Shown piece after piece: positions 18,447-60,097 of a stretch of 64,000 nt of DNA. Source of the stretch: Apostichopus japonicus (taxonomy: Eukaryota; Echinodermata; Holothuroidea; Aspidochirotida; Stichopodidae); NCBI RefSeq assembly GCF_037975245.1, contig NC_092568.1, forward strand, positions 23,729,501-23,793,500. The letters are read 5' to 3'. Below the pieces are notes generated by a model. That model worked only from the letters and a program-made list of their open reading frames with translations, was not told where the DNA came from and made no database searches. Position 1 is the stretch's first letter; each line of letters opens with the position of its first letter. The translations under genes and the position numbers were made by a program.

Positions 18447-21400
18447 TGGGAGTGAGTTAACATGAGGTTGATTCATGGCTGAGATAATATCCTGATATGT
18501 CTTGACTGGTAGAGTCCTCCTGGGACCCGTCTGCCAGGTCCTACCCTCCTCATCCACTATACTAGCCTCTACTGTAATGGTGTAAAGGCCGAGTGTAGGA
18601 CATGATAACAGGACCTGCTGACTAAAGTAATCATTGTGAGGGCTAATTAGCCACTTGGAATGATGATCGGTCTGGAAAAAACACAAGGGAAAACACATGT
18701 AACAAACATATTTCCAGATGACAACATTTCAATTATCAGATTATCCATTCATTTATGAACAAGAAAACTGTTAACTTAATAACAATTTCCACTTTAAATT
18801 CAATATGAAACGGTACATTAATTGTGCAAGAAATGAGCATCTAGTCTAAAAAAAAAGAAAAAAGGATGAGGAATCTTAAACCTATGCATATTTGTGATTA
18901 AAATGAACCACCATAAACGTTTAAATTTGTTCTTACCTCTTGTGATTTGGGAGCAGCTTTGGCACTACATGAAGCAGAAACAACCAGACAGACTTGATCC
19001 ACTTTTCGGAACAGACCTGATATTTTACAAGAAATGAAGAAGAAAGAAGATTGGTAGATGTTATATGGAAGAGGTCAGAACTTACAGTGCCCTTAGAAAC
19101 ACAACCTCCTTATGAAATATGACATGTAGGGGACATTGCAAAAACCAGATGATTGAATCTGCGAATTCTCATAGCGATGAAGAATAAATAGCATTTTAAT
19201 CATTGTATCATGAATGAAACCTGTGGTTGCTGCTAGTTAAAAGACCACTGAATTAGTCTACAAGCTTTGGCATTATTAGATGCCATGTCAAAGTGTGCCC
19301 TATCTAAGAGAACAGATAGGGTACATTACTGTCCTACATTAGTGAACAGATACTGTGCAGTTCTGTACTACATTAATGAACAGATATGTACAGCATTGTC
19401 CTACACTAGTGAACAGATATGGTACAGTACTGTCCTACATTAGTGAAAAAACAGTACAGTACTGTCCTACATTAATGAACAGATACCATACAGTACTGTC
19501 CTACGTTAGTGAACAGATACCGTACAGCATTGTCCTACATTAGAGAACAGATATCGTACAGTACTGTCCTATATTGGAGAACAGATACCGTACGGATTGT
19601 TATTTTAATCACAGTGGTTCACATATGAGTTCAACTTTAGACCTTGAACATGCTAACTTTCAAAGCCCTGCTCTCCATTTATTTCACAATCATAGAATGT
19701 TTTTTTCACTTCTAAAATCCTTCAGTTCTTCTTGAAACTTAAGCTAGGATAATCAAAGCTGAGAACAAACCTGGTTTAGACCCGTGTTGTATGACTCCTT
19801 CGATCTTCAGGACAAGTTGAGTCTCCGTTGAGATGAGAGTTGGCTCACCTGATGTCCGAGGAGAAGGGGAAAGGGCCAGCTGGAATGAGAGAGAATATTT
19901 TGTTGATGATAAGTTACAATTTGGATTCATTCTTGGACAAAATCTCTTAAATGATTGGAATGGTTTTATTTTAACAACTTTGTGAGCAGAGGGTGCTAAC
20001 TTGATAGATAAATCCCATTTACGAAGAAATAGGTAAATGAGCTCACCTTGATTGTAGTTGTCTGTAGGGCCTGGTAAAAATATCGTGGAAAGGTGAAAGG
20101 AAGTTTCAGCAGGGCTAAACACGAATCTAAAATACAGTTTGTATGCTGAGGACAAAAATATAAAAAAGATAAAGTCTCTTTTGTCATATGTCAGTTATTA
20201 AATACTATGCCAAACTAGGACATGTTTTTATATATGCTTTGAATCCTGCAAGATCTAGTTGTCATTGTCAATGTCAATGGGAGTAAATGGAAAATTGGAA
20301 ATCAAACACTAAATGATGTGAGACGTAAATAATATAACTTCAGCAAAAATTCAGGTATAGATATGACTCAATTGCAACTAAGTTTTCTGCAGGATGTGAG
20401 GGTGGGGGGGGGGGCATTGGCTAACTAACTAGCACAAAATAATGTTCTTTCCTCATCTGGGAGCAGGGAATTTCAAAATAATTTGCTAAAGAGACGTCAA
20501 AATATGGATGTACATTGCTGACATTTTATCTCTTTTTTCATGACACTTTTGGTACTTTGTGATTTCTAATTGTTATTTCTAAATCTGCTCTCTTCAAATG
20601 CTCCTACAACCTTTTTGACTGCAAGGTCTAGAAGACGATACAAAGTTCACTACTGATTGGTTGAATTAATGACTCACCACATGAGATATAATTTGTCCCT
20701 CTGTGCTCTGCAAGACTTGCTTCGAGTCTGTAAGTATTTCCTTGGTAACCTTGTGATTGATATCCTGATCTGTCTTATCATTGCTGATGTCTTCAAAAGA
20801 ACTCAGAGTTTGAAGTGGAAGATAGGTATTACTTCCCCTATAGATTGAAAAAGTAACATGAAAAAAATACTTTAAAATATGTCAAACAAATATGCAACCT
20901 ACATAGATCACTCACATAACTACAAAGAAAAGTACGGAAGAGAGGTACTGTAGGGCCAATTAACCTGAAATGTTAAAAGACACAGTAAAGTGTAAACTTA
21001 ACCTGAAATTAATCATCTAAACACTAACACATGATCTTCCCCTGTTCCCAACCTCCTCCCGACGCCCACCCCATCCCGAGTCTTTACAACTCAGAGGAAG
21101 AGAGCGGGAAAAATTGACAGTTATGCATGGAAGACCTTTAATGTATGTTACTTCGGTCCAACTTCAATTAGCCTCAAATGTACATTTAGATACGATGTGA
21201 ACTTGGAAGTAACGCTACCATTGCAACACATATATCTTGTTATAGTCAAATGTTTATACAACACACATGGCAAGCAATTTTATTCAGCAATATCCAGTTC
21301 TCTTCCGATCTATGGATGTGGAATTTCACAAAACAAAATAAAAAGGGTTGTACTTGCATGTAGGTTCGATTGTTTAAGATGAGTAAGTCCACTGTGTGCA

Positions 21401-24400
21401 TCAGAAGGTAACACTGTCTCTGCATTCTGGTAGAGAAGTTGTTAAGGAAAACAAAGTCGAAAATTGTAATGTTTCACACAGAGAACTCTTACATAATGAT
21501 ATTAACCTTCCCAGTCCTATACTTTTAGCCTATCACAAATACTAACCAAAACCAAGATATCTTACAATCATTTCTATCACTTGCATGTGTCAGTAAGGAT
21601 ATATTACTAAGTGTTTGTCTGTCCATATTTAGAGTACTGAGATGATTATGAATTGTGAGTTGTACAATTTCTTTAAGCTGACTCTTTTACCCCTTTGAAA
21701 AGGTACCGCCAGTAGGAATCTTCTTTTATAAAACAGATCAGTTGCTGAATTGGTAGAACACAGGGTTGGTCTCATGACCTGACTGGCTTCAAGCCCATTC
21801 TAACTGAGCTTAGCTCTTCGAAAATAAAAATTGCAAATATCCTTGCCAGGTTTGTTCTTGACTCTTACTTAAGAATAATAAAACAAAATTAACGGAAGAA
21901 GATCCTGCTAGGATCGAATCATCAAGCACTCTAAATTTTATGAAGAAAAAAATTGTTAGAAAAGGATACAACTGAATTTGTTCCAGAGTTTTCGGATCTG
22001 CATCAAATGATACCCTGTAAAGCTGGGAGAAGCGAGATGCGAGGGACTGTAGATGATTGTAACATTGTTGCATCTGTGAGAAGAATGGATGTAAGATTAC
22101 GTTATTTATGATGTTATTAAATAAAAGTTTGGTGGAATGAAGCTGCAATCAAGGGGGAGTAAAATGTACTTAAGATTTAACACTTTATCTGTTATGTGGA
22201 ATCAAAGGCATAGATCTTTTGTTTTTGTGTAACATAAACACAGAGTTAATATAAAATACAATTCAAGATACACAACTGCAATTATTAAGTTTTAACAATT
22301 TGAAATGAGATCTTAAAAGAGTGAAAATTTTGTAGATTGATTGAAAGAGTTGGTTCTCTTTGTTTAATGCTTGTGTAACTTTAATGTACATTTTGCTAAT
22401 GAGAGATGTCTAGCTATCATTAGCCTGCAACGCAACAGTTTTAAAAGTTGAAGTTGGCGATAATTTGTAAACACATACTGACTACATGTACTTAATGTAC
22501 CCAATGGACACACTTCCCTGCCAGGATTTTTAAGCTGTGCTATTATAAAATCACCTTTACTCCAGTAATATCTAATTTGCAATTCATCAGTTTTCACTGT
22601 CAGCAATGGAAAACTACCAACTTTATAAGAAAGTGTTGACTTTTACAAGTTCTTATTACTAGTTTGAAATCTTGTTCAATATGAAAATTCATGAGTTTTC
22701 ACTATCAGAATTAGGAACACCACAAAAATAGGGCAGATGAATGTACAAGGAATTATTAAAGTAACCTGAATATACTATGGTAGTGAATTGCAGAAATAAT
22801 TTTGTCATACCAGAATATTTGACAATTACAGCCCACTGGTTCAGTATTCTACAAACAGTCTTTTTTAACTATTTCTTCTTCTGTTTTGCCTTTGCCTTGA
22901 AAATTGCTAGAAGAAATATCAGGCTATTTAAAAGTTTCATATATTTGTGACAGTAGGGTAACACTTCGATTGAGCTTTCTGTATAAGCTTCCTACCACCC
23001 GGGATTCGCTAAACTCATCTAAGCAAATACCTGGGCAGCAAGATGGCCACACTTGAGAAGTTCCTGGCCGTTAGCAACAGCCATTGCAGGAGCAATGGCA
23101 GGAGGAGGACAGGTACGAGAGGTTACGAGACTCGTAACCAAGGAGGAGCAGGACTGAAGCCAATCACACCGGAGACGGATGAAACTGAGCTGAAACTGTA
23201 GAGGATGGTTGGGTGTTGATGCTGCCTGAAAAGAATCAAAAGAACACATTTACAAAATAAAACTTCAATATATTTAGACACTTTACTTAGAAACTATCAT
23301 TCGTAATTCATAACAGCTTCATCTTCCACGTACCAAAAAATTTCAATTTAGTTGAGACAAACATCATTTAGTTTTGTCTTACAGGACTTTTCAACATATA
23401 ACCCAATCATTCAAGACACCAACGAACAGTTGGTACCATTTTCTGCAGAAATTTTATGTTGTTGCATCTTTAACTCAAATCAGTTCAAACCTCTTGTAAT
23501 ATTGTGGGTGGTTCTAATTCGAGTAGGTTGTAATTTTTTTCACCTTGCCGCAGATATCAAGAATGTGAATTCTATCTCAAACTATTCAAAACATGCATGT
23601 GCATGCAAGGAGAACATTGCTACAAATCAGGCAGGAGTCCAATCTGTTGGAAACTCAGTCTTTTCAGGGGAGGAAATGCAGCAAACCAGGTAAATTTGTT
23701 CCCTTAAAATGTTCACACTTGGTGAAAATATAACACTTATTTTGAGCAAACTGTGAAAGTTTCCCAGACATCTCAATCCATAGTTAATACCCAAATTTAG
23801 ATGCTTGTTTTAGCAGACAACTTGCTGCATGCTAAACTCACCTCGACAGTCATAGAAATACGGCAGGCTCATGTAGAAATGTAACTTTGTGCGTAGGGTT
23901 ATATTAAAATATTTATAGCAGTTATTAAACTTATCACTAATCATTATTCCCCTGATGGTGTTAGACAGCTCACCTAAAATATGTGAAAGTAGTCGATTTG
24001 GCAAAATGAGACATTGATGGTCATTGGGTAGCCAATGCTTGGAATTTTGCCATAAATTTACAACATTGAATATCATGTGTACAATTTGACCAAATGTGAG
24101 AGTTTTTTAAAACTATCAAAGCTTTATATTTCTGATATTGAAGTATTAAGATGAACAAACATGCGACCATCGATGATACACCATTTGTTACTACAACACT
24201 TGCAGTACTCAAGCTGCAAAGAGGTATGGAATGGTAAGGTTTGTTTACTTAGCCTATTTGTTTCTATGAGATACCTTTAAGCAGCCGATGCCTTTCTGAT
24301 ACAGCTGCACCGAAGTCGACAGGCAGGAAATGATATCTTTAAATCTGGCTTGCTCTGGCAGTTCCAACAGAGCAGATTCAGCCGAAGTGAATTCGTGAAG

Positions 24401-27400
24401 TGAATTCAACCAAAAGTAGTAGTTTTCTGATGCCACCTACGTGCGACAAAGAGACAACAAAGGAAAAAAAAAACATTGAAAGGAATAATGCTGTATTAGC
24501 AATGTGTTTTAATATTCCTCTTGGTTGATAAAAATGAAAGACTGACAAAAACGACAGACAGATGGACTCACCTCGGTAGAAAGAAGCCGGAAAAACTCTG
24601 AAGCAGTCAAATGACACCCCTGAAATTAAAAGAGCAGCAAGTTTTGAGTTACAATACAAAACAAAATATATATAACAAAATAAACATCCTAAATGTCAAC
24701 TTTATGCAAGTTGGGTTCTTACACCAAAATGTACATGGCTAGTACATGATATGAATTAAGGGCCTTTCACGCTGATTGAAATTACCTTTTTGGTACCCAC
24801 CACTCACTATCCATCCCTTCCCGCCCCCCTCCCCCTCCCTCTGGCCATTTTATGTATCCTAAATGGACAGTTATTTCCATATCATACTAAGGTTCAATCC
24901 AGCCGATTGTTATTTTATTATTCTATTATTATTATTATTATTTAGTATTTATTATTTTATTATTTATTTATTATTTAGTAAAATGATCATGTTTCTATGA
25001 AAGTCCCTTAATAAGTAGAGTCATGATGCTGCCTTACCAATCTTGTAGCCTGTCTTGATATCTTGAATGCCAACCATGAATATTCATGACATAGACTGGC
25101 TACTCTTTCATGAAAGAATTGATCCCCAGAACTTGATTTCTTGCTGCATAGCAACAGAGGTACACTCAGAGCAACCTGAAAAAGGAAAAAGGGAAATTTG
25201 TCAAACAGAAAAACAGACAATCTGAAACTTTCATAAAGTTATTGATGAACCATACAACTTTCCCCTCCACACCCCCCCCCCCCCCCCATGTTCCTCCTCA
25301 TGCAGACTTTAGAAGAATGTATGTCCTTACCAAGAGATCCTTTGCTCCTTCCTCTTCAATAGATTTTAATGTAGAATCAAACATCTCTTGTAAAGTTTCT
25401 TCATGTTGAAGCAGAATGGAGGGATTCTTCTCACAGAGACTTATGAGACCGTGACAAAGATCCACACATTTCAAACCTGAAAAATCAATAATCACGAAAT
25501 AAATACGTTGTCAAGATGTTGAAGGGTCCAGCCCTAAAGTTTCTAAAGCAACCTTTCCAAAAGTTGAGTTCCATGTTGAGTGCTTAAAGAAGAATAAAAT
25601 AGGAAGACTGACCCTTTCTCAAACTAGCCCTTCCACACCCCCCCCCCCTTCCCTCTCCATCTCCCTCTCAACATTCCTGTCTCTTGTGCCTATGATAATG
25701 ACTTCCTTACAGTATCTCTTAGAGATGTAAAAACAATAAAATGTTTTTTACCTGTGGTACAAGATAATCCGGTCGATAGAGTTCCAACCAAACTTTCTGT
25801 GAATTCAGAATCTTTCTCACACAGTTGTTGCATGCTCTTCAAAACCAGCTACATTGATAGAAAAAAAAGAAAGATATTTACTTGAATTTGTCTCTTCATA
25901 TGTAGTATCTGCAATCACTCAAATTAGTAAATAATGAACAGGTTTTAAGTGAGTACATTAGATCAACCATAGGTCTATCAATCGTTGAGGCTCAAACAAT
26001 GAATAGGATATGTAAATATGGGAATATAAGATGGAAAATTTATCAAAATGGAAAATGTGTCAACTACCTTGCTATATTCCTTAATACCTTATTTATAAAA
26101 AATTATGAAATGTAAAACACAGCAAATGACACCTACAGCTGTTTTATCTGATATGATTTTAAGCCAGTGAGAGGCTTCCTGAATTTTATGAGTTTTTTTA
26201 TAAATTTTTATAACAAGTGCAGTCAAGGAAATGAATGATACTTTCTACTTGTTTAGACCAAATAGGTATTCATATGATCGCATGTTAAAGCCAGAGTTGG
26301 AAACAAGTAGAACTATCATAAATTAAGTCAAGCATTTGGTTGACTACAGGCAAAAACAATTTGCCAATACTGACATTTCATTTGTTCAACAACAGCATCC
26401 TAAAACGACACTCTTTACAACATAACATCCCTCATGATAGATCAACTATTCGAAATGTGTTTCTTAGCTTTAATTATCAAAAATAATCTTCCCCGATAAT
26501 ATTGACATGGCCCTCGAGAGTACTATGTAGAAGACCAGAGTTCATGGAAGGTGATGATTCAAAGTATACAAGGTACCGTGGCCACCGACAATTATAGAAC
26601 CTCCTGGGTTGTGGGCCTAAAAGTCTGTGGACCACTGTCCTAAAGCAATTGTTAGTTACATAGAACTAAAATATTATTAATTATACCTTCAGGTTGTAGT
26701 GGCATTTATGAGAATCTTCCATTATACATTGTGTGAGGAGTGTTTCACTGCAGATCAAGGTATCTTGCAATCGTTGCTTGTCATTGGTCAGTTTCACCAG
26801 CAGTTCCAGGGCCCTGGCTGCTATGGAGATGTCCCAATGTTTACAGAGTGTCCAATACAAGTCTTCCAGATGGGTCACTGAGGACAGAAGATACAGAAAC
26901 AAATATTAAAAATATTGTCAACAGTATAGCTGTGTATCTTGTGCGAAAATATCCACTTATTTGTAAAGTACTTGCTTAACATCCTCAAATTATAATTGCA
27001 GTTAATGAACTTTACTATCAAAGCAGTTCTTTTCATTTTTGTTGCAAATTTCCAGCTACTGTATTAAATCAAACTTAATGAGTAACATCCAAGTGAAATT
27101 ACAACTGATCAATTTCTAGATTTTTGTCCATCAAATAAACCTTAATTAGTAATCTTGAGTTTAATTGAGCTGCATGTGGTTTAAGGTCATCAGTGTTAAG
27201 GCCCGGTCACACTACAGCGATATTTTATCAGAATACGGTCCGATTTTTCCGATTTTAGGTCGAAGAGTGAGGTTTGTGGTAGTGAATGTAATGAATGCAA
27301 TGGAATATTCGAATACCTACTCCAAATCTGAGGGGTCCTGGAACGGACTACATTCTGAAGTGACGTCACATCGAAAAACGATAAAAATCGGAAGAAAAAT

Positions 27401-30400
27401 CAGATAGCTATCCGATAAAAGGAAACGGAGTCAATATCAAAAGTTAGGAGAGGGCTATTCCACATCGGAAAGGCTCAACAGATAGCAAATCAGGTCCTTT
27501 ATCACTGTGGCTAGAAGACCCGAACAAAAAACTGGATGTTTTGATTCCTCCGGGAAAATCGGATAGTATGTAGAGATCTCATTTTTCAATTATACTCCTA
27601 TGTAGATCTCTGTAGGGCTAGACTACATCGACAATAATTACTTTAAGCTGATACAAGAACTAAACGTTACACTCACAGGTCATATTGACTCCAAACAAAG
27701 ACCACTTTGACAGCGTCCGTAAAACATCCAGTCTGGACGAAAGTAGTCTGATATCTTCTAAATCTTGACCAGATAAACTTAGATCAGAAATATGGGCTTC
27801 TGTGAAGAAATGTGGCGATCTTTCAGCTAATTGTTGAAGGTTGCTAAGGGCAACCAGTTTTACAGAATCTGAAGTTTGGTTGGTTAAAAATTTCAGCAGC
27901 AGAGTGATCTAGCGGACGACAAAAGGGAAAGAAAATGTTATCTGAGTGAGAGAAAAAAGAAGAGATTTTCTCAAAAACTTTTCTTACAAAACAAAACAGC
28001 TTTTCTGAGTAAATTTTATTGCTAATTGAAAGCAGTAACAGGTCTTGTTTTCCTGTAACTGAGATCATCTTGCACTAGCACAGTCGGTATTTCATTGCAG
28101 CCACTGTTTTGATTGCAAGTGCAGCAATGCTAGTTTATTTTTTGCATTTGGCAGCTATAGCCACATGATAGAAAAGCAACCAAACAATTTACTTCTAAGG
28201 AACCTTCACATGAAACTTATGTATGCTGTTTAGAGATCACACAACATCAACATGAGTTTTGAACTTAAACTTTTAGACAGAGTAGTTTACAGCTATGAAT
28301 ATACTACTAACATATGAAAGAAAAATACAGTGTCTGGGAATTGTTATAGTACCTGCTCAGGTATTAAGATGTGTGATGCAAGGGCCAATTTTGTAAGGGT
28401 TGTGAGCAAAACATCCAAGAAATCATCAACTGGATATAGGTCCAACAGTTCCCTGCAGACTCCATTCACCATCATAGCAGAATGGGCATCATGGTGCATA
28501 TGCTCAAATGTTGGTATTAACTTCAGCTTTATCTCAGTCGGAGTAGATAACCCTGCAAGGAATTATGCAAACACTCTTTCATAGAACACTAAATGCATTG
28601 AAATGTTGGATAAAATAAGCTAGCCAGAAAACGTTGAAAACTAACTGTAGAAACTATTCTGTTACTTAATAGGTTACTTGTGAATTGCTTGAAGCTGTGT
28701 ATTCGATTTTAACATGAATACTTTCAACAAGACAAATACAAAATCATGCATCCAAGAAGAAGGAAGCTCTTCAATATGATGCTAAGTCTTGAACATATAA
28801 TAGTTAATAGTCAAAATCTGAATCCTGATGCAAAATACATACGGTCTTGGTAAGGTTTGGAATGGTACAGTATGGTTCTGATTGGAATGGTATGGTAAGG
28901 TTAGGTACAATATGGTATGGTATATCATGGTATAGCATGGTACGGTAAGGTGTATCACCGTGTATGGTAAGCTATATTTGCAGTCCAATGCATTTATATG
29001 GTCAGCAAACTAGAAAGCAACATTGCTGAATAATCTCACAGATCCACATTTGTTCCTTGGTAATGTGTCTATCTACATTAATGTGATGTGTCATCTTCTG
29101 AGATCAAATATCTATCAACCATTAGAAACCACTCTGTTGTTATAACACTTGAACCCACATTATATTGCATCATACCATGTACACCGACCATCCTCCCCTG
29201 ACCCACTCCACGCCCTCCATTAGTCTTCTGACCTTCCTTCCAATTCATACATGATTTTCGATTCCTTGTTTATTTCTTTAGCTTGCAGTTATTATAGTGA
29301 TGTTCAAGCCTTTGGTTCAATTAATGCAACAAATATACCTTGGATCAAATCAGCCAATTTGTTACAGATGCCATTAGCGAAAGCCTTTGACTCTGCTGCA
29401 AAGGAGGACACAGCATAGATTGCGGCTTCCATCTCCACCTTGTCATGGGAATCGAGTCCAGTATGTATGCTGTGATGGACACTCTTCCTTTCAGAAATTA
29501 TGGATGCAATGCTGCCTAAGACTCTAAATAACAAGGAGAGCAAAAAAGAAGGAGGAATATCAGGGAATAATATATCTTGTATCGCAGAGCAGTCTGTATA
29601 CAGTAATAATACTGCCACATAAAATTTGAACACTAAATTATACCTATTTTTGACAATGCTAGGTAGTCCTGTGGATTTTTGCAAATAAAGGGTCTGACTT
29701 TTGCGACTTTCCTGTTATTCTTAGAGGCAAGTAGGTTTTGACAAAGTTATGTATAAATCTCATTAGTTACAGTCAGTTGCTCTTTAATGATGAATGAAAT
29801 ATTTCTTGTTCTTTAGCCCTTGTTACTTTATTATTAATTATTAAATTTTAATATTATTTATGATACAATATTTACACAGAAGGCTGATATATTGCATCAT
29901 TTTGCAAAGTTCTGGAAACACTTACACCAGTACTACTTTACACAGTTACTTATGCTCACATTTGGAAAGTCCAACAAGTTCTTTTGTCACACCGGGTGGC
30001 AGAACAAAACACTCAAACACTTAGCTTGCAGTTCTTTAGAACTAGGCTTCATCATGGTCATTGACACTGCCTTTTTTCTGTTGGAATTCCATAGCAATGT
30101 TTTTCTAATATATTAGACATCACAGCTATAACCACATTCAGACTAATTTACTTATTTTATGAGTTGATCAAGTGTTATGTATGAGGGTCATGTATGAGGG
30201 TCATGACTCAAGTCATTTGTCTTCTAAATGAAATGGCTAGAAAGGAATCGGTGAAGGTATGTTCCCAATAATCATATATGAACAGTTATATCATCTGTAA
30301 TGCATTGCATGCTAGTAAAGGTATTTATATCAAAGTTCACCAAAGTATAAACAATTTTGGGTCCAAATGCAGCTGAAATGGCTGAAATGTTCAATCGGAT

Positions 30401-32776
30401 TGTCTTTGCAACCTACTTTTATAAAGTCGGAAACACAAAATTACAAGTAAATCAGGGTTAGAGAGTACCTTAATGTCAAAGCTCGAGCAACAGGGTCGTT
30501 GCTGTGAATGACAAAGAAAATTCTCCGGACAAACTCATCGATGTTAAGGATTTTATCCAGGTGTTTGTTGCTCTGCTGGGTAACTCGTAAGATGCACATT
30601 CTAAGAAAGTTTGAGCTGAGATTGAAATAGGGAAACACAATGCAATATTATTTCTAAGAATTTTAAACTTAACCAAATATTTCCCATATAAAATACATGA
30701 ACCGAAATTTATATGCACGAATGACAATGCTTCATAAATAGTGCAGATACTGATGAAGGAAAAACTAAATCATCACACTGAGCTTTATGAAAGATATTTG
30801 ATCTAAATTTAGATGATACATAGTAGACGATCTGTAGGTGCTACTATTTTCACAAAAATTACACAAAAACTAAAATGATGAATTAAAATTACCCATCTCG
30901 GAAGACGTCTGCCAGCTTCAGGAATGCAGAGTTGATGAGGATTGGAAAAGGATATTTTTCAAAAAGTCTTGGAAATCTCACAATTGCTTCACATTGTTCT
31001 CCAACTTTGTTTGACCTTAGCCCTATCAAGCAGAAGAAAAAAGCTATCAATGGATCACAATTGGGTATCCAGTCAAAACGTCCCTTTACCAAAACGTCCC
31101 CGCTTTTTTAAGACCAAAACGTCCCCGCTTTTTACCAAAACGTCCCCGCAGTCAAAACGTCCCCGTGAGTCAAAACGTCCCCGCTTTTTATAACTAGTTG
31201 GAATACAAGTGTGGATGTATTTAGTTCAAATCAAAGAGTAAGGATAAGTATAGTTTAGTTTGAAACACAGTTTTTAGGAGTGGGAAGTGCCGGTGATGAG
31301 GGCGGAAACATTTTTGAGTATAATTTTTTTAGGTAATATACTAGAAAAGGGAATGCAAGAGGGCTGTAGGGTAAAAGGATTTTTTTAAACACGAGTTGGT
31401 TTCTGAATGAATGAATATATACGATATTGAGGGAAGGGAATAAAAAAGATTTTTTTTTTGTTGTTTTGTTTTGTTTACGTACAACAAGTTACTTTTGGAA
31501 TATGCGAGACAGACTGGATGAAAGTGATATATATTTTCCTACAGCACATACGTTTATTTTTTTATTCTGAAGACACTTTATATTTTTGATTTTCGTGATT
31601 GTTTGCCTATTTTGCAATCCTTTTCCAGAATTTATTCTGCCTTCTTATTTTTTGATGGTATAGAAGGGGGACTACGGCTAATCCGTTTCTGCCCTAAACG
31701 ATATATAGTCCTTCATGATTTATTTAGCACCTGTAATCCTGTAATCCAACTTGCATGCCAATAACTTAGCCAAATAATAACTTAAAATTTATATATATTA
31801 ACAACTGTGAATGAATGTATTAGACGGGGACGTTTTGACTTACGGGGATGTTTTGACCAACGGGGACGTTTTGACCAACGGGGACGTTTTGACCAAAAGC
31901 GGGGACGTTTTGGTTCGGGGACGTTTTGGTTCGGGGACGTTTTGACTGGTAAGCCACAATTGTATGTCAGTTTCATAGAGACCCAATAATCAGTATAACT
32001 AGTCTTCCTTGACATAAGTACAACCAAATCAGCAAAACATATAAGTCATTCATAAGCAAAAATAAAAGTTAAAAATGAACTGCAAAACTGCTACAAAGCA
32101 TAAAAGCTACAGTACCAGATGGTTTTGTTCATGCATTTTTTCTTGAAGAGGAAGTAAGCTGTATCCTACATAGCACTGTAGGCCTACCATGTGCTTAAAA
32201 CATTTACCTAGGCCTAGTTGTGAATCTGAAAACTAAATTCCTGCTAGGCGTAACTGAGGCCTATGTTAAGTTCTGGATTACTTGCATAGTACTAGCCAAG
32301 GCCAAGTTTCATCGAAGCTTGCAACTTAACATACAGTAGCCTAAGTTAGGCCTAAATTAGAGTAGCATAGATGGGCCTAACGCTAGTGGATCCATAAACT
32401 TTACGTTCTATGGATCTGTTTCTTGCTCTTTCATAGCAAAGTTGATATACAGAAAATTTACAAGCCTTGGAACACACATATATAGACATGTGTATATCTC
32501 TGTACACGGTTCATGTCGTTCGCAGCTTTTCGCACAACAAGGCCACGTACAAACATAGTACTGGGCCTAAGCTCGTAGTACTATCCTAGGCCTACTACTT
32601 TAACGTTAGTAAATCAGTACTGAATTGAATGACAAAATTTAAACAAAGTTCGAAGCCATAAAAATTCAAAGTAAACCTTTGTCTAGCTCCAACAAAGCTG
32701 AATTGGCATCTTGTTCTTGATCCCCATAGCCAGAATCAAACCCTACGACAGAAGCTTTGCCGAAGCTTGCAAACAT
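18393..32776 (-). CDS. INTS7: INTS7, Integrator complex subunit 7, complete, 19 exons
   Basis: Alpha-helical repeat subunit of the nuclear Integrator complex, which cleaves nascent snRNAs and attenuates paused RNA polymerase II. Exons 5' to 3' (minus): 32776-32677, 31022-30893, 30615-30469, 29523-29339, 28552-28353, 27908-27677, 26877-26687, 25848-25752, 25476-25331, 25175-25038, 24619-24572, 24436-24275, 23225-23031, 22073-21970, 20837-20678, 20145-20047, 19879-19771, 19016-18937, 18671-18393. The sum is 2802 nt, 933 aa (human about 962), with every phase consistent. Diagnostic strings: SGYGDQEQDANSALLELDKG, GEQCEAIVRFPRLFEKYPFP, NVDEF-like NIDEFVRRIFFVIHSNDPVA, FDADPKTLEQIQ, LALSPSPRTSGEP, EGVIQHGSKPGLF and PHNDYFSQQVLLSCP. 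Exon 15 (20837-20678) is a diverged, acidic insert region but holds the frame. The final residues come from the adjacent minisatellite. Initiation at 32776 fits the vertebrate N-terminus. The introns also contain tandem repeats and two mobile-element candidates, listed separately. Confidence 0.96.
19325..19595. repeat. Tandem repeat of about 33-34 bp, eight copies, in an INTS7 intron
   Basis: Copies of 'gtcctacattagtgaacaga' followed by 'tac-gtacagtact' start near 19331, 19365, 19398, 19432, 19465, 19498, 19532 and 19566. It lies between INTS7 exons 17 and 18. Short open frames across it are artefacts of the periodicity. Confidence 0.9.
24905..24985. repeat. ATT-rich microsatellite in an INTS7 intron
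   Basis: A run of TTA/ATT trinucleotides ('tattattattattattt') with interruptions, between INTS7 exons 10 and 11. Simple sequence with no coding potential. Confidence 0.8.
25268..25289. repeat. Long poly-C tract in an INTS7 intron
   Basis: An almost uninterrupted cytosine run of about 18 bases upstream of exon 10. Similar runs of about 10 or more C or G occur near 8358, 20402, 25637, 37981, 42123, 45536, 46936, 53450, 54870, 56071 and 58331. Lengths in an assembly at such tracts are unreliable. Confidence 0.8.
27195..27645. mobile_element. Possible fragment of a non-autonomous DNA transposon in an INTS7 intron
   Basis: The block opens with 'aaggcccggtcacactacag', a motif I associate with the ends of short non-autonomous DNA transposons in many animals. 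It then continues with 'cgat'/'atcgg'-rich sequence (gtccgatttttccgatttta, atcggaagaaaaatcagata) distinct from the surrounding intron. I could not find a clean inverted copy at the other end; 'gggctagactacatcga' near 27617 resembles the start in direct rather than inverted orientation. The element is therefore truncated, decayed or misjudged. Confidence 0.4.
28855..28975. repeat. Imperfect GGTAT/GGTAA simple repeat
   Basis: About 120 bp made of 'atggtatggtaaggt', 'ggtacagtatggt' and similar variants, in the INTS7 intron between exons 4 and 5. Degenerate microsatellite with no sign of function. Confidence 0.75.
31057..31963. mobile_element. Foldback-like element: inverted arrays of a 16-17-bp repeat around an AT-rich core, in INTS7 intron 1
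   Basis: The left arm (about 31071-31192) has six copies of 'caaaacgtcccc' units, and the right arm (31825-31946) has seven copies of the reverse complement, 'cggggacgttttg'. Outside the arrays, the left edge 'acaattgggtatccagtc' mirrors the right edge read in reverse, 'acaattgtggcttaccagtc', so terminal symmetry extends to the flanks. The centre (about 31195-31824) is AT-rich and non-coding. Arms of short direct repeats facing each other are the pattern of foldback elements or MITE-type non-autonomous transposons. No transposase is present. It ends about 34 bp from the INTS7 exon 2 acceptor. Confidence 0.8.
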
Positions 32777-33432
32777 TTTACTTAGCTCAGGTCTTTCCTC
32801 TGACAACCTTAGTTCTAGTAATGTTTCCTTTACTGACGAAGGGTGACCACAAGAGTTGAGAAAATGGGCTAGGACAGGACCGCAAAATCAGACCAAAAAA
32901 TGTATAGCAGATTTACCCAGAAAATTATTTAAAAAAAGTTTTATTAGAGTGATAATTTTGTAATCACCATTGCAGTTAAATCTAAGATGATGACCATAAA
33001 AAACTGAGTTTACTATGGAAGTACGAAATAGGGTATCGTTGTTCGCGCACAACTTAGGGATTGCGGTCATCAAACTGTTCAGGTGCTGCCCGTCTCATAA
33101 CAAAACAAGAAAATATGCACATGAAATTATTGTTATCTTCAATTTAACATCTCTAAGGAGGTAAGGGGAGGGAGCTGTAACCTGGTACGGGTAAATAGTC
33201 TGAATTGACTGGAAAGTGCCTCCCCAGTCCTCGACTACAAATCCTGACCTTTAGCACAGCTTCCGGCATAAACAATGAAACCGCGGGAAATGTGAGTGAA
33301 ACGTTAGAACCAGCAGTATGCTGGTCATGTGTACGCACACGACAATGCTACAGATAGTCAACGCTAGTATGTAGCTTATGTGAATGTGAGGCCTTAGAAA
33401 TTGGAGTTGTTGTCCATATTGCCTGTTCGATA
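32777..33432. promoter_or_regulatory. Bidirectional INTS7/DTL promoter region
   Basis: The start codons of INTS7 (minus, 32776) and DTL (plus, 33433) lie head-to-head 656 bp apart. I see a consensus E2F-type site, ccgcgggaaa, at 33281-33290, about 145 bp upstream of the DTL start, and an ETS-type core, ttccgg, at 33261-33266. No TATA box is obvious near either start. ETS and E2F sites fit a shared housekeeping and S-phase promoter, DTL being a known cell-cycle gene; use of these sites is inferred. Confidence 0.75.
33281..33290 (-). promoter_or_regulatory. E2F consensus-like site upstream of DTL
   Basis: Reads TTTCCCGCGG on the minus strand, matching the TTTSSCGC consensus. It sits in the shared INTS7/DTL promoter. 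Vertebrate DTL is periodically expressed under E2F control, so the position is meaningful, although a single short match can arise by chance. Confidence 0.55.
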
Positions 33433-36400
33433 ATGGAACTCGTTAAAACCCAAAGGTATAATGTTGCCAATCGTGTGCTGCATTGGCCGCATAACAGACA
33501 AATTGAAGGGCGATATTCGATAGGAAAATACAAGAAGAGAGGTATGTGATAATTAATGATTTTCAATCATTTAAATGACTCATCCATGAATGACTTTCAA
33601 CCGATAGGGAATGCCACTACGCTGTGGTCCTACAGTATACATTACTAGTGTCCAACGTTAGTCCTAGGCTGGGCCGGGTTCTTAAATTGGTTTCTGAAAA
33701 TCTGTGATACCACTACAAGGTTATTGTTTAATTTGAGGTTGCAATTAAAGCTCTATATAGTGATCAATGTATTATGATTAGATATGCAGGTGACATTGTG
33801 GTAACTGTGTTTTTATGTAAAAATGACAGTTTTGCTTTTGTTAATGAAGTGCAGTAGTGTTCTACAGACCTACTGAACCCTTGAATTTAAAATTGTTGAC
33901 TTGATTTTAACCCCATTATTGTCATTCTTGTTTAATCTCGTCATTGCTGAGTAGTGAGTACATTTTTCTTCTTTCTCTTCTTCACTTTTAAGGATTTCAA
34001 CAGGTGTTTGAAGGCCTGAAAAAGTTGACCTGTTACCCACCAGATCACTTTGCATTTCTTCAAGCTGATAATGAAGATGAGTTGGTGCCGTCGTTTTCAG
34101 CAGCATTTAGTAACATCAATCCTGACATTCTCGCATCAGCCGATGAAGATGGAATCATGAGGTTCTTTGATACTAGGAAAGCTTTATCAAATGGGTTTGT
34201 TTCTGGTAAGACAATGTTTTAGTTTTTTTGCCCAGAATTGATGAAAATCACAAATATGAACTGGTTTTGTAAACAAGCCACTGTGACAGTTAGTGTCTGG
34301 AATGTTAGATATAACATCAGCAATATACATCTAAGCGTATAGATTACTCAGAACTGCTTTATATTGCCACTATAGCTGAACCTGGTAAACATAACTTTCA
34401 ATCAATAGTTGTAAGTTAAATGAGTGTCACTTTTAGGAGATATAGTACACTTAAGATTTGGTTTAGACACACCCACCCATATCTCAAAGTCATACATAGC
34501 TATGAAACAGCTGTTGGATAATTTACTGTATAGTACTATACAAAAACTCAGAACAATTTATTTATGATTACTGACAAAGTGTTTGAGTCCAGTAGGCAAA
34601 TATATGTTTTCACAATAAACAAAGTCTACTTTTGTACATTATACACTAGTTTCAATATTAATTCATTAATATAATATGATTGAAGTAATATCCATCTTAA
34701 GGATTCTGAAAGGCTTTAAGTTTGCAAAAATTATGAAACAAATATTCCATTTCTAAACTGTCCTCTCTTTTATGTAAGCCAATAATTCATAACCGTAACT
34801 TTTATTACAAATCATTCTTTTCAGGATTTGAAGCTCATGACAATGCAATCTTTGACATTGCCTGGGCTCACAAGGAACCATGGATAGTTACTGCATCAGG
34901 TGACCAGTCAGCTGTTTTGTGGGATGCACCCTCCGGCAAAAAGAAAGCAATATTTAAACAACACAGTGGAAGTTTGAAATCAGTGTCTTTTGGTTTCCAA
35001 AACAACAACATCTTAGCAACTGGGGCAAGAGATGGAAGTATCATTATCTGGGACACAAGATGCTCTGGTAAGGTCGAGATGGCTTCTTTAGAAATGTGGT
35101 AGTCAAATATCTATAAAATATAAACATATCTTTCCAATATTAAAAATGTCACAAATCTTGTTTTGTTCAATTAGTAAAATACATGATACATCAAGATTTT
35201 AGGATACCAACTTTAAAAAGCTATGACAATTGCACAATTTTCTCTTGTGTTTATGTCAAATCATACACAATAGTCTTCTCACTAAATTATCATGTTTGCA
35301 TGGATGATGTAGGCCAAGCTTAAAGATGTAGCTTCACATATGGGAGGATACCTGAAAAAAAGGAATTTATTAGTATTTAAAGGATTCTTTTCCTCAAGGT
35401 ATTCTCAGATGTAAAAGATAGAAAATAGAAAAGTCAATTTCTCAATGAAGCAAACATCTTATAACAGTGTGGCACCATTGCCATTTAAGAGGGATATAAG
35501 ACCTGTTTATGTTGTCCTATGGAAAGCCAATATTGTTTCATGTTGTTTATTACAATACGGTCCAGCTACTAATGTTAGAATATATGGTGTTTGCTGGTCT
35601 TTGTACTCCTTATATACTATGTTAAACGTCCCATCATTGTTTTAAGTGGACAAGTTCAGAGCTGAACACATTTAACTGCTTTGTGTCTGACTCTTGTATT
35701 ATTCATGACAGAGAGCAGAAAGAATCGCCCAGTTCCGATCGCTACCATCACCAAAGCACACGAAGACAAAGACTTAAGCAGAGTAAAACCGAGATGGAGA
35801 CGAGGAATGTCCAAGGCCATGCTGAACATTAATCCTCTCCAGAGTGTAACCTCCGTCCTGTTTCAATCAGATAACCTGTTGTTATCATCTGGTAGTGCTG
35901 ATGGGTGAGTAGATTCAAGGAAAATCTCCTCCAGAATAGAAAGAGCGTAACGTTTAATTGCTTTGAATTCAAAGGGATGTAAGGGAACTGCTGAAAAACT
36001 ATTGCTGTCAAATTTTGGCAATTTTCAAAAATTTTGGCTATTTTCAAATTTGACAGCTTACATTTTTCCCATGGTAATTTTCTCAAGTCTCTGCGACAGT
36101 GAAATGTAATCATAACATTTGTAATTGGATTTTGTTTTGAGTTATCCCATAGTCTAGGTCAGTGTTTGTGTTATTGTCAGGGTCTCTGATTCATTATAGC
36201 CTAACAGGGCTTTATATGTATTCATAGAAACAAGGCATGTTTTTCAATTCAGAGGGTATTTTTGCAATCACTCAGCATATTTACACGTCTAGTCGATGGA
36301 ACCAAAGTTTATATATTCTGTTCTTTCAGCATTGTTAAGATGTGGGATGTCAGAGCCTTACCTAAGAAACAGAAGAAGACACCGGACCCATATTATGGAT

Positions 36401-39400
36401 ATCACTACGGTGGCAACAGCCAGGGAAAACATGGTCAGTCATTTCGTTTCATTTAAGTTCTAAGAAATCTGTCTGTGTCATCCGCAAGTGTGCTGCCTGT
36501 CAGTCTGTGTGGTTTTAAAGGCGGCAAAAATATGTTTTTCTTTTTCTAAATTATTATTATTATTATTAATGCGCAGTTATTTATTATGTTTCCTTACTAC
36601 TTACAGTAATATTACACTTGTCAGTTTTCTCAGAAGTTAAGATTTCTTTTCATTTTACAGGTTTCTCCTCCTTGACGATAGACTCTTCTCGCAGCAGGTT
36701 TTATGCAAACTGCACTGACGGTGTCGTCTATGCATATGATTGCGTGGGTGTACTGAGCGGCCAGCCGGCAGCGAAATATTCCGGTCACGTGAATTCTACG
36801 TTTTATGTAAAGAGTCTTCTATCATCTGATGATCACTACCTGCTTAGTGGATCATCGGACTCAAATGCCTATATTTGGAAGGTAAATTCAGCTCCTAACC
36901 ATTGTCAGTTAATGGAATATTTAAAGCTCAGTAAGACAAAAACAGTTTGCATTGCTATTTGAAAATCCAATCCCAATTTCTTCTTCCTAATTTTAGATGC
37001 TGCTTGAAGGTCACTTACTATTGCTTGATAAACTCTTTGTTACTCCAAAAAATCTGTTATATCATCATGTCATTGCGTATGTTCTGACAAAGCTTTTCTC
37101 TCCTGTGGAAACTGTTTTGTTAAGATGTCCTTAAAATGTGATAAATTGCTTAGCTGTCAGTTCCTCTTCTTCCTTTTACTTTTGTTTTCTTCTTGTATTT
37201 TTTCCCCTTCTTCTCATTGGCATTTGTAAATATAAAAGTAAAACTAAAGATAAGTTGGAAGTAATTTGCCTTAGAAAGTCAGTCAGTCATTCACCTTACT
37301 TAGATACTTTCATAATCATAAAGTTTCACCAAATATTAAATAGTCATGTCTTTGCAATCAAAGTTGCTATCAGGTTTTGTATTTTTTTTCACTCAATAGT
37401 GAAGCATTTCTTGTAAAAAGTCAGCTATTGACCATCAGAATTGTTTTTCCTTCAATCAGTACTAAATATTTAATCAATTGTGTGATGACAAAATGAAGTA
37501 AGAACATCATATCAAAGAAATAATTCAATAATGCTATATACATTATTTCCTGCTTTTCATAGACGGATGAGCCTGACAAACCTCCCATAATCCTTAGCGG
37601 TCATAGTGGGGAAGTCACAGCTGTGGCATGGTCTCCAATTGATAAGACAAAGGTATTTGCTACTAATCGTTAAGACAGGTGGAAAAAAAATACATTAAGT
37701 TATTCCAATTGATATATAGGGTTAGAAATGTCAATCAGGCTACAAGCCCGGTGAATTCTCTATTAAATGTTTACTTTCATAGCGATGTTTGTGGATTTTG
37801 TACTAGTATCAGGTAAGCTTCAGGTAAGACACGTAAGTATCGTCGCTCATAAATTTCAAAACCAGTAAGGTTTCGGGAATTATAGGACATAATTATATTC
37901 AAGTGTAAACACTTACAGAGTTACAAGCAGTTTCTATCTGAAGGGTGTTTTCCTAGAGACAATATTTACTTGAAAAGAAGAGGGGGGGGGGGGCATGAGA
38001 GGAAAGGAAATGGGAACGAATGGAAGGGCAGAGAGTGGGAGAGGGAATAGGAGCAATGGAAATGGAAAAAAGGTTGTTCCTTGACAGGAGTATGACTCCC
38101 AAAGACTGCGGACAATCATAGGAGTTCACAGAACATAGGAACGTACAATTTATTATTCGGGTAAACAATTTGACAGGGAAAAGAGCGTTAGGGCTTTACA
38201 GGGACTTAAAACAAATCTAGCAGTAAAATGTATCCATGTTCAACAGTGTTTCACAAGCAGCTCTGAGTACAATCACCAGGGTGTTGTTCATTCCTTTTAA
38301 TGGCAGACTTTTCATGCTTTACTTATCCTTTTCAGTGGCAGCATATCGAAAGACTTTGACATATAAAGCTTTATAGCAAAATTGGCACCTAACCTTAGCA
38401 AAACAGTTCTACAGATTGTCTAGCTTCATACTTGAGATTCTACCACGTAATGTTGGATAAGGTTGAATTTACGTCTGACCCCTGATATTTTTTCTGTTGA
38501 CCTTTGCTCTTATAGGTCGTGACCTGTGCTGATGACTGTACCATGAGAATCTGGAGGATGAAACAAGAAGGTGTGAAAGAGGAAGAACGTCCAATTGGAG
38601 AAGCAAAGTGGGAGCAACCATCCTCAGAAGAAGGTAAAGCTACAGTATTGTGCTTCATGTTTTTTTTATTTTCTTTTTGTTAACACCATCCCACAATGAA
38701 AACATGGAAATGACTGACCTATTTATTGGAAACTTGTACCAAAAGTATTAAAGTAGTGATTCCCATTTACTCTTATCCTTTCACATTAATGATAACTTAT
38801 TATTTCTTTTATTTCTTATTTCTTTTATCGATTAATCATCAGAATGTTTGGCACAGAGTGAAACTAGAACACTGGAACCCCCTGAAACAATGAGAGAATC
38901 AACAACAGCAAACAATTCGAACTCAAAGGAAACCGGTACAACTTTGCAGTCAAAAGAGACTGGAAAGGGGAAATTTAATCTAAAGGCCTGGGCAACGCCA
39001 CCGACTAATAACAAAAGCAACAGAAATGAGAATGGCAAAGAACAGAGTGATGAGCCCAAGGATAGGAAGGAAGTATTACAGAATTCAGAGAGGATAAGCA
39101 AAGATAAAAGTCCCCTCAAGGACTCCGTAGAATGCGATGTCACGAAGACTACATCTAGTCCAACAACTCCGAGAATGTCTGTCGCCAAGGAAACCTACTG
39201 TAAGAGGAGAGGGAAAAGGCTGTCAAGTTTAAAAGATTGGATAAACAGGACAGACAGTGAAAACAGCAGATTAATGAGTACTGGATCTAATGATGATACT
39301 AGAAGTGGTGAAAGTAGATCTGAGAGTGTGTTAGATGTACACCAAAGAGTGACACACTTAACACAAGCAGAACATAAAGCTGAATCGAAAAATGATAAGG

Positions 39401-40351
39401 AAAATAAACTACCAAATAAGGAACAGAAAGAGAATCATATATTTAGGCTAGTAAGACCAGATAAAGAAGACAAAATAAAAGGAAGTACCCAGAGCATAGT
39501 TGGTGGAAGAGACAATCCACAAGACGGAAAGGAATTATCCATTGAAAGAACTTCCACGTGTAAACAAGAGATTAATGTGCGAGATATCCAGGATAAAGTG
39601 GAAAAGAAGAGGGGAGGGGAAGGAGTTGCCCTTCGGAATAAAGGGAACAGAGCAGGTTCGAGTAGTGAGGAAGTTCAAGAAGAACATAGCAACACTCCAA
39701 AGGTAAGGAAATTGTAACTGAAAGAGAGTAGGTCTAGGCCTAACTGATTTTACTGGTGTTCAGATATGTTCAGTTTTATAGAAATATTTACCTCAAATAT
39801 TCATATGATTTATGATAAACATATTTACATATCGCCTACATGGTGAAAATGAGTGATTAAAAGTTGTGATAGCAATGATTATCGGTAAAACTTATGTGAC
39901 TTATGAAATTACCTTTGTTTGGCAATGATTTTGAGGCAAGAAAACTGTATAGAGATGATGTCAAAGGTCATTAACAATTGCTCTCCATTTCAGACCACAT
40001 AGCGTTAGACCGGCTAAAAAGGCTGTCAGTTAATTTTAAACTGTTCATATTCAATAGTCGGTTAAACAGCGAACATTGTCAGAGGACAGTTTAATACTGC
40101 ATTCAATTGATGGAGGTGAATTAACTCCAGGAACAGTTATATCACCTTTTCACTCCTGACAATGCCTCAAAATTACAAAATTTCAAATTCACTATCCTTT
40201 CTGTTTTTGAAAGTTGTTTAACCTGTGTGTTTGACCTATCTCATTCCAGGTTAGAGTCTCGAAACGCCGTAAAGGTGACCAAATATTTGACTACTTTCAG
40301 CCGTTGAAGAGACAGAGAACAGATTCCCCATCACAATCTCCAGAGACATAA
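33433..40351 (+). CDS. DTL: DTL (CDT2/denticleless), CRL4 ubiquitin ligase substrate receptor, complete, 10 exons
   Basis: WD40 substrate receptor of CUL4-DDB1 that targets CDT1, p21 and SET8 for destruction on chromatin-bound PCNA. Exons: 33433-33541, 33993-34205, 34825-35067, 35712-35904, 36330-36433, 36661-36881, 37563-37652, 38516-38633, 38843-39702, 40250-40351 (TAA). Total 2253 nt, 750 aa (human 730); GT/AG borders and phases all agree. The WD40 propeller is carried by exons 2-8, e.g. FEAHDNAIFDIAWAHKEPW, SLKSVSFGF, GHVNSTFYVKSLLSSDDHYL and VVTCADDCTMRIWRM. Two WDxR motifs expected for DDB1 binding are present: IIIWDTRC (exon 3) and VKMWDVRA (exon 5). Exon 9 encodes a long, charged, probably disordered tail with SSLKDWINRT, resembling the conserved helix of the vertebrate tail. 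Exon 10 ends with a PIP-box-like GDQIFDYFQPLKRQR. AATAAA signals follow at 40846 and 41035. Confidence 0.96.
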
Positions 40352-46614: not shown

Positions 46615-49600
46615 TCAGACTTCCGTGCTGTTCTCTGAACCTGACAAGAAAAAAAATTACTTAAAATTTCTGTTACTGTAATAAATTTGTCAATCCAATT
46701 GTCATAATGATTGTAATGATTTGTTGCCTCAAGAAGTTGAAAATCTTTTTGATTAACTTCATCTAGTGGCATTATAGCTATCATATGATGTGTTCTGTAC
46801 ATAAGATCCAGCACTCATTTCTGGAGATAGATATTGGTCATTTAACACTTTTGTCTTCATGCCACAAGAACTTTAATAATAAGTAATAGCTCATTAGCTC
46901 CACATTTAGCCGATGACCATTCATAGATCCAAACCCCCCCCCCCCCCTTCAGCCACTTTTTTCCATTCTAAATTTTAGACTCATTACTCTTAAATTAAAA
47001 AAGAAAATTAAAAAAATTCAATGCTACTAATGATTCTATAGCTATTATAGTTTTCAAGGTATTTTTTCCTATAAGTTATGCTGAATGTCTGGAATTCTCC
47101 CTTACGAATAAATCAGCGATGAATGTAACTTCTCAGTCCAGGTCAGCTTAAATTTAATCCATTGCTTTCATGAAATTTTTAGTAACTCAATCAAATAAAT
47201 GTTGTTTAAACCTTCATAGCAACAAATTAGCACCAGTTGATGACATCCCAAAATCATATTTTCCTTGGTAAATGTGTACTGCACTGTAAACATGTTATTT
47301 GAGGCCAAAAGTCTTTTCTTTTTCTTATGATTGACTTTATATTACTTCTTAAAAGCTGACCTGATATCCTATAAACTAGGCTTTGTGGTCCTGCAACATA
47401 GATATGTACGTTTCTTTGAATATCTCAAACAATAAAAAGCGTTATAGACAGTGGCTCTTTGCGCCTACAGCTTTTATCATACGTAGACATGTCTCTAACT
47501 TTCCAAGAGGACCCTGCCCTCCTTGCCAACCCTAAATTCTTTTTGCCTTCCCTATCATCCCATATCCTGCACCCCATACCCATCAATGTTCCCTCTTTCC
47601 TACATACCATCATCCGCTCCCCATACTCTGATATTACAGTCATCCGACACGGAGACGAGCATAGTTGGTACGACTGGATTCCAAGCGACGCAGTTGACTG
47701 TCCGTGTATGGCCCTGAAGAACAGCTATCGGCATCTCCTCCTTGATGTGCCATATATATACATTATTATCTGAAATACAACGACACACAGATATACATGA
47801 TACTTCATCCCATATGGGTTCTTACACAATTCAAGAGTCCCAACAGACTATGCATGTTTCCAAGTTCCAACAAATGAACAAAACTTGTTTCCACTACTTT
47901 TATCACACTGACCAATGACAAGTAATTTGTACTGGGGTCTTCTGCAATTACTTGCAGAGATAATACATTATATATTGACTGTTTTTGGAAAATAATTTTT
48001 TACCACTGTTTTGATCACACCTGACCTTGGAACAGTCCTTTCTACTGGAGTCTTGTGCAATGAATTGCAGAGGTAATACATAACATATTCACAGGTTTTT
48101 TTGTAAATAAAATTTTAACCACTATTTTGATAACACTGACCTTGGACTATTCCTTTTGTACTGGGGTCTTCTGCAATTACTTGCAGAGGTAATACATAAC
48201 ATATTGACAGGTTTTTTGTTGTTGTAACTTCACACATCAGTTTTTTTGCAGCTTCAAGAAATCTATTAGCAATTCCATTCTGAGCTTATATTTGCAGCTG
48301 GCATCGACAAAAAAATAGCATTGTACTGACCTTTTGGAAGGAGAATATTACCTTACAGACTCTAAACATGACAATGCCCTTATGGTTGGATTTGGAAATT
48401 TCTTCTCTTAAATTACAATTCCACCCTGAATATCATATATCATCATGCTTTATCCTTAAAGCAGCATATACAAGCCACTCTTTTTGTAAAGTTATTTCTA
48501 ATTATTTTGTCAGTAAGGAGGCCACTCCCTTCCTCCAGATGCCTAACAGAAACTAACAACACATTCTGAACTTTGCACAAGAACAACCAAAGTAATAAAA
48601 TGATAAACGGACGGACATTTCGGTTTTGTATTTCGCTAGAGCAGGTTCAAAGGTACAAAAGAGTTCAAAGGACAGAAAGCTAAATTGAGAACCAACGTAA
48701 AACTCACCTTCACTTCCGCTTGCAACAAACTTTTCGTCCACTCCCCCGAAACATGAATGTATTGTGTAAAAGCCCTGGCTGACACCTTGGAACTTCCGAA
48801 CGAGGATTTTGTCTTTGATATCCCAGAGGTGAACACCTTGGTATGCTACGCTGAGGAGTGCTAGTCTTTCATTGGAATCGACAGAAAAGGACATAATGGA
48901 GTGATCTTCCTTAATTCTGAAAAATGAACAAACAAAAATTATTAACGTTAAATCACGATAAGAAAAACTTACGAGAAACTTCCAGACAGGTTCTTAGAGA
49001 CCAAAGAAGTTAATTCAAGAGAATACTAATTTCATTACTCTTCAAAATAAAATTATAACCACATGATTTCCTCACTTTGGTTTAACCAGTGCAGTACTTG
49101 GTACATATGTTTTCAAGAGCTTTCGTCTTCTTGTCCAAGGTTTGTGCAATCTGCTAGTAAGTAGCCTGTCACTAGATATCGATAAGAAACTTCAGCCCAG
49201 AGTTTGGGTGAAGTAGGGCAGCTACATCTGCTGTGAAAGTGTTGTGGTTTGTGCAATGTTTTCATAATTCAAATTCTGAAAAATTTCTGTGATCTAAAAC
49301 TTTCTTATGACACTATGTATGCAATAAATGCAAATAAGGCTGCGTTACATTATGTATCAGAAACCCTGCTCGGTGTTCAGCTTTAAAACAATACAAACTG
49401 ATATTAAACCTCCGTGCATCTACAAACTGATTTTAAACCTCCATGCATCTACATTAGACCCTGTGCTTGGTATCAAACCAAGAACTTGTGACCACCAAAG
49501 AGAAAGTTGAGGTTGGTTTACAAACAGAAAAGGCACAAACCCATGAGTCATGTTATGTGAAGCCCTGCTACTATAATGCCAAATAAGGTGCATAACAAAC

Positions 49601-59998: not shown

Positions 59999-60097
59999 GG
60001 AGACAGGTAAGCTCGTCACTCGTAAATATCCAAACCAGTAAGTTTTGGAATATTTACTTCGCTCCTCGCTTACCTGTCTCCTCACAACCTTAGCACC
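59999..60097. repeat. Internal complementary region (ICR) of the DIRS-like element
   Basis: A near-palindrome centred about 60050. Its left half, 'gagacaggtaagctcgtcac...', is complementary to the left terminus at 59367-59421. Its right half, ending 'gcttacctgtctcctcacaa', matches the other terminus type. In DIRS-1 such a region is complementary to the two joined ends and is thought to template completion of a circular copy. The end of the recombinase frame (stop at 60090) lies inside it. Confidence 0.8.

Follow-up and report, generated by a model that had tools for sequence, protein, structure and literature searches.

In this work, a head-to-head pair of genes was found in a 64-kb window (the whole stretch of DNA analysed) of the Apostichopus japonicus genome, in which INTS7 on the minus strand and DTL (CDT2) on the plus strand are adjacent, with their 5' ends facing each other. 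INTS7 serves RNA processing, and DTL serves the control of DNA replication. The features of the locus are as follows.

18534-32777, minus strand: INTS7 gene, matched extent of the coding region, with partial exon mapping
32677-32777, minus strand: first coding exon of INTS7 (open frame and donor), start codon at 32775-32777
32778-33432: interval between the two start codons, 655 bp, GC 0.40, CpG observed/expected 0.68
33042-33048, plus strand: weaker E2F-like core TTCGCGC, short of the full consensus and separated by 264 nt from the INTS7 start
33259-33266, minus strand: ETS/GABP-type core CCGGAAGC, the sole exact CCGGAAGY in the 64 kb
33283-33290, minus strand: perfect E2F consensus TTTCCCGC, lying within AAACCGCGGGAAA (33278-33290)
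33433-39717, plus strand: DTL gene model of nine exons from splice modelling, stop codon at 39717
33433-33541, plus strand: proposed first coding exon of DTL (open frame, start codon at 33433-33435, GTATGT donor)
33993-34205 and 34825-35067, plus strand: DTL exons 2 and 3
35712-35904, 36330-36433 and 36661-36881, plus strand: DTL exons 4 to 6
37563-37652, 38516-38633 and 38843-39717, plus strand: DTL exons 7 to 9, the end of the last exon being putative

The identity of INTS7 is well anchored at its 5' end, where exons 1 and 2, joined by hand, match the Integrator subunit 7 chains 8rbx_g and 7cun_G (residues 13-77, E about 3e-32). Additional PDB matches to INTS7 were located at about 30468-30644, 29334-29528, 28350-28556 and 23016-23243 (converted from query residues), with a weak one at about 27708-27914 (5.3 when taken alone). 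Further exons match the Pfam families INTS7_N and INTS7_HB, and INTS7_C was matched in the frame 18396-18728. Intron 1 of the gene contains tandem repeats with a unit of 16-21 nt around ACGGGGACGTTTTG, at 31085-31184 and 31824-31947, and their orientation is opposite between the two places.

The DTL model has GT donors and AG acceptors at all eight junctions, and a query of the first 410 of its 721 residues matches the chain 9c5t_A, 'Denticleless protein homolog' (1e-84, residues 68-407). The model's residues 1-67 were unmatched in that comparison, and the 35 whole codons of exon 1 found no match in PDB, so exon 1 rests on its open frame, start codon, donor, the right phase for joining exon 2, and the spacing of the E2F site described below. 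The first-pass annotation had held both first exons to be mapped directly; this stands for INTS7, and the DTL exon is of the more indirect kind just described. Across the 671.6-Mb assembly, one exon per gene was searched: the INTS7 exon gave a single match, and DTL exon 3 matched perfectly at one place and weakly at three more (33-50% identity), the latter being probably other WD40 genes. Orthology is therefore meant here in the sense of a best match and a single clear locus for one exon per gene, as distinct from a tree. The names INTS7 and DTL and their divergent order, both proposed earlier, are borne out by the PDB and Pfam matches, the splice model and the adjacency of the genes.

The two start codons are separated by 655 nt, a small correction of the 656 bp given before, and the transcription starts would lie even nearer each other if there is no leader intron. 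The CpG ratio of the interval is unexceptional, since 10% of 655-bp windows (taken up to about position 60000) equal or exceed 0.68. The search for repeats in the interval gave nothing notable, and Rfam at gathering thresholds gave no match in the whole window.

Other features were noted in the window and in the assembly. At 60093-63998 on the minus strand there are long open frames, one of which matches Pfam RVT_1 (4e-22) and RT_RNaseH (1e-5), in a region with a GC of 0.57 and CpG above the rest of the window. This is probably a DIRS-type retroelement, judging by tyrosine-recombinase-like residues at 60093-60569, a segment that had no Pfam match. Two exon-like minus-strand frames at 48556-48993 and 51841-52185 presumably resemble WDR26, although neither matched Pfam when searched singly; if rightly read, the WDR26-like gene runs toward DTL in convergent orientation. 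The human WDR26 gene likewise lies on 1q. A BAH-domain exon at 6417-6716 on the minus strand (Pfam 2e-9) resembles, in our assumption, proteins of the MTA family. Outside the window, in the COX1 of contig C35, AAA stands where asparagine is presumed and AGA where serine is presumed, in agreement with NCBI table 9, the echinoderm and flatworm mitochondrial code; given this protein, an echinoderm is the probable source, and the comparison with human thus spans echinoderms to mammals. Pieces of COX1 also lie on a second contig (C29:14745-31219), perhaps as a nuclear or misassembled copy of mitochondrial DNA.

E2F-type and ETS-type cores had been noted in the interval at 33281 and 33261, and both are present, at 33283-33290 and 33259-33266, 16 nt apart. 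The E2F core is 142 nt away from the start of DTL, and 505 nt separate it from that of INTS7, to which only the weaker TTCGCGC comes nearer. The pattern TTTSSCGC occurs four times in the 64-kb window against a mean of 1.91 in shuffled sequence, and 14 of 100 shuffles reach four. In a wider background of 175,193 bases, made up of the window and most of the fetched loci (a few overlaps were kept and four loci left out), 14 sites were counted, or about one per 19.5 kb once the five sites of S-phase genes are subtracted. The E2F site by itself is thus moderately unexpected, and its position is the stronger argument. The exact 13-mer TTTCCCGCGGTTT was found genome-wide at eight places (none forward, eight reverse), while the reversed control pattern gave 16; the 13-mer is thus unenriched. 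The pattern TTTSSCGCSAAA with at most two mismatches occurs 17 times in the window against 17.7 expected and not at all in the interval.

The position of the site was compared with that in further S-phase genes of A. japonicus, counting to the start codon and not to the transcription start. Exact TTTSSCGC sites were located upstream of the following genes.

PCNA, contig C6:8085880: 148 nt upstream of the start codon
MCM6, contig C4:27557065: 145 nt upstream of the start codon
MCM7, contig C10:18476843: 149 nt upstream of the start codon
RRM1, contig C14:20697990: 156 nt upstream of the start codon, or 147 nt if a Met further upstream is the start

Four of the eight S-phase genes with a located start (DTL excluded) therefore carry the site at 145-156 nt, near the 142 nt of DTL, and the other four differ. 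Up to 600 bp from the start, the sites of MCM5 all carry one mismatch, with gaps of 24, 153 and 188, and so do those of MCM2 (178, 211 and 294, the MCM2 start being read from a two-codon exon); the exact site of EXO1 is far off, 1,006 nt from the start, and MCM4 has none in about 5 kb upstream. A ninth gene, CDC45, was excluded from the count because its first exon was not located. The chance of at least four of eight genes having a site within 300 bp is about 4e-6, or 2e-5 on a denser background. We rely on this 300-bp figure because the narrow band was noticed post hoc and DTL falls 3 nt outside the range of the others. The MCM, PCNA, ATP-cone and proteasome families had been picked before the sites were inspected; XPG_N, CDC45 and GINS were added once the spacing had appeared. 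Control genes were named from their Pfam family and the N-termini that we presume for them. MCM3 was absent from the five MCM_N matches in the genome, the GINS family had no match in the assembly, and FEN1 was not recognised among the three XPG_N matches, which we take to be ERCC5, ASTE1 and EXO1. No TTTSSCGC was found in 936 bp at ERCC5. Beside the ASTE1-like gene, a palindromic E2F-type site, TTTGGCGCGAAA, lies about 1.2 kb upstream (locus L034, 262-273, contig C12), and may belong to an unseen neighbouring gene rather than to the ASTE1-like one.

The proteasome genes served as a control, a weak one as their start codons are unlocated: none of the seven loci near an N-terminus has TTTSSCGC in 1.5 kb upstream, and the sites at three of the 16 loci (L017, and L018 and L024 which share one) are inside genes by exon order. 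Five exon matches to the E2F_TDP domain were found in the genome. In the available text of a human table of 488 RB-E2F targets, chosen by promoter ChIP, all nine control genes and DTL are listed (PMC9090780). E2F1 motifs are tightly placed relative to the transcription start in human promoters, at +5 and +11 to +23 in the accessible part of that report (PMC5117513), so the spacing seen here would be a variant of known behaviour. The 142-156 nt could reflect a fixed distance between E2F site and transcription start combined with short leaders. If the spacing of PCNA, MCM6, MCM7, RRM1 and DTL holds genome-wide, it would be of use in predicting S-phase promoters and first exons in this genome, and it is the part of these results most deserving a genome-wide check.

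The corresponding mammalian promoter has been studied by experiment. The CDT2-INTS7 interval was described in seven mammals, and the human one is active both ways in A549 cells as a bidirectional promoter whose minimal region was judged inseparable (PMC2194621). In these cells E2F1 raised the CDT2-direction reporter but not that of the INTS7 direction, its overexpression increased CDT2 mRNA and not INTS7 mRNA, and E2F2-E2F4 likewise raised the CDT2 direction; the E2F sites beside CDT2 were the most important for the E2F1 response, and the tissue expression of the two genes differs (PMC2194621).

We hypothesize, with some confidence, that INTS7 and DTL form an ancient inherited head-to-head pair whose interval contains both promoters, with E2F acting on DTL and INTS7 being constitutive. 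Both promoters would lie in the 655-bp interval. Restrained in G1 by RB-type proteins and activating at G1/S, E2F/DP would control DTL via the core at 33283, which lies about 150 nt before the DTL start codon, as in PCNA, MCM6, MCM7 and RRM1. INTS7 would be a constitutive housekeeping gene transcribed in the opposite direction out of this open region, perhaps aided by the ETS site. We infer here the ancestry of the order, the binding of E2F and the direction of its effect. The S-phase-gene spacing of the E2F site from DTL and the human reporter data together speak for an E2F effect in one direction, and by the spacing yardstick the site belongs to DTL, being 505 nt from the INTS7 start. It would be a support for function if GCGGGAAA were kept at an equal distance from the DTL start in species of the same class.

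The first-pass annotation had suggested instead that the shared promoter couples Integrator to S-phase control, and the alternative that the E2F site drives DTL and INTS7 jointly, so that the supply of Integrator tracks S phase, is in our view improbable. INTS7 stands together with DTL among the 488 RB-E2F targets, of which 415 meet all criteria including p53/p21-dependent repression, as far as the available text of that source goes (PMC9090780). However, promoter ChIP cannot tell which of two genes responds, and the tick marks of the table's columns are lost in that text, which makes the criteria met by INTS7 unreadable; its coupling to S phase is thus unproven by this source. A study of RN7SK also shows the two genes as an example of a bidirectional pair (PMC8497571), and reporter activity toward INTS7 fell with p53, B-Myb and c-Myb (PMC2194621). 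The weaker core at 33042 is nearer INTS7 as well. Against this, the absence of an E2F1 effect on INTS7 in A549 cells and the placing of the full consensus at the S-phase-gene distance from DTL, and not from INTS7, leave the coupling unsupported in the form in which it was proposed. A broader version, in which selection maintains a deuterostome-wide or older shared promoter because RB/E2F sets both outputs and ties the dosage of Integrator to S-phase entry, the ETS site keeps both directions open and E2F cores in this lineage have a nearly fixed place about 150 nt before the start codon in many S-phase genes, is equally doubtful. That the true first exon of DTL lies elsewhere, and that the interval is consequently not its promoter, is quite unlikely: the first 67 residues of the model lack a homology match, but an open frame with a start codon, a clean donor and the correct phase begins at 33433, and it is from this codon that the E2F core has nearly the spacing of S-phase genes. 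Still harder to believe is that both cores are chance matches. By chance alone 3.3% of 655-bp intervals hold the E2F consensus, and 0.87 exact CCGGAAGY are expected in 64 kb, where one was seen; however, the two lie 16 nt from each other in a single interval, and the distance of the E2F core from the DTL start is near the values of PCNA, MCM6, MCM7 and RRM1, for which the probability is about 1e-3 in a 21-nt band. Human head-to-head pairs show an over-representation of E2F4/E2F6 and of the ETS factor GABP (PMC4089025).

The strongest competitor, although itself not likely, is that the gene order is old but passive, with two separate close promoters that are unshared and no selection for linkage. 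The interval has room for two core promoters, and chance can preserve gene order over long times. However, gene order seldom persists from one phylum to another unless parting the genes carries a cost. The human interval also works both ways, with the inseparable minimal region described above. An inherited pair with E2F acting on DTL remains the reading we prefer. An independent origin of the same pair in the same orientation is very unlikely, which makes inheritance likely, and it is reasonable to infer that the INTS7-DTL order dates at least to the last common ancestor of echinoderms and mammals. Among the matches listed in the literature searched, no report of the pair outside mammals was found, and the pair was absent from those on an E2F spacing rule or on ancient head-to-head pairs. 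In a comparison of insects and vertebrates, the available part suggests that most human divergent pairs are younger than the deuterostome-protostome split (PMC2670823), so a deep age is not the rule. If the order was inherited, a promoter that the papers found describe in mammals only predates the echinoderm-chordate split, and the pair becomes a natural comparison for why functionally unrelated genes stay together, whether through shared open chromatin or through a shared cell-cycle input.

Most probably the locus is a deep instance of a conserved pair already known. The likeness to the human arrangement, pointed out in the first-pass annotation, agrees with the published mammalian pair: the identical, orthologous genes face apart, and an E2F consensus lies close upstream of CDT2 (PMC2194621). 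The TTCCCGCGG core is common to both, the human copy being known only from a published primer, but it is on the opposite strand relative to CDT2. The human distance is 246 bp between transcription starts, compared with 655 nt between start codons here, and four E2F sites are predicted in human, two by each gene, whereas one full consensus is present in A. japonicus. Promoter activity has been measured in mammals, and the sea cucumber interval is known from sequence alone. The DTL side resembles E2F-controlled S-phase promoters such as those of PCNA, MCM6, MCM7 and RRM1 in this genome, with TTTSSCGC shortly upstream of the gene start, and differs from them in that a second gene departs the opposite way. 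Of the neighbouring coding genes of amphioxus, 25% are in bidirectional promoters, and 372 such promoters are called putatively ancestral (PMC6292497); INTS7-DTL is like these in being a head-to-head pair of housekeeping-type neighbours inferred to be pre-vertebrate.
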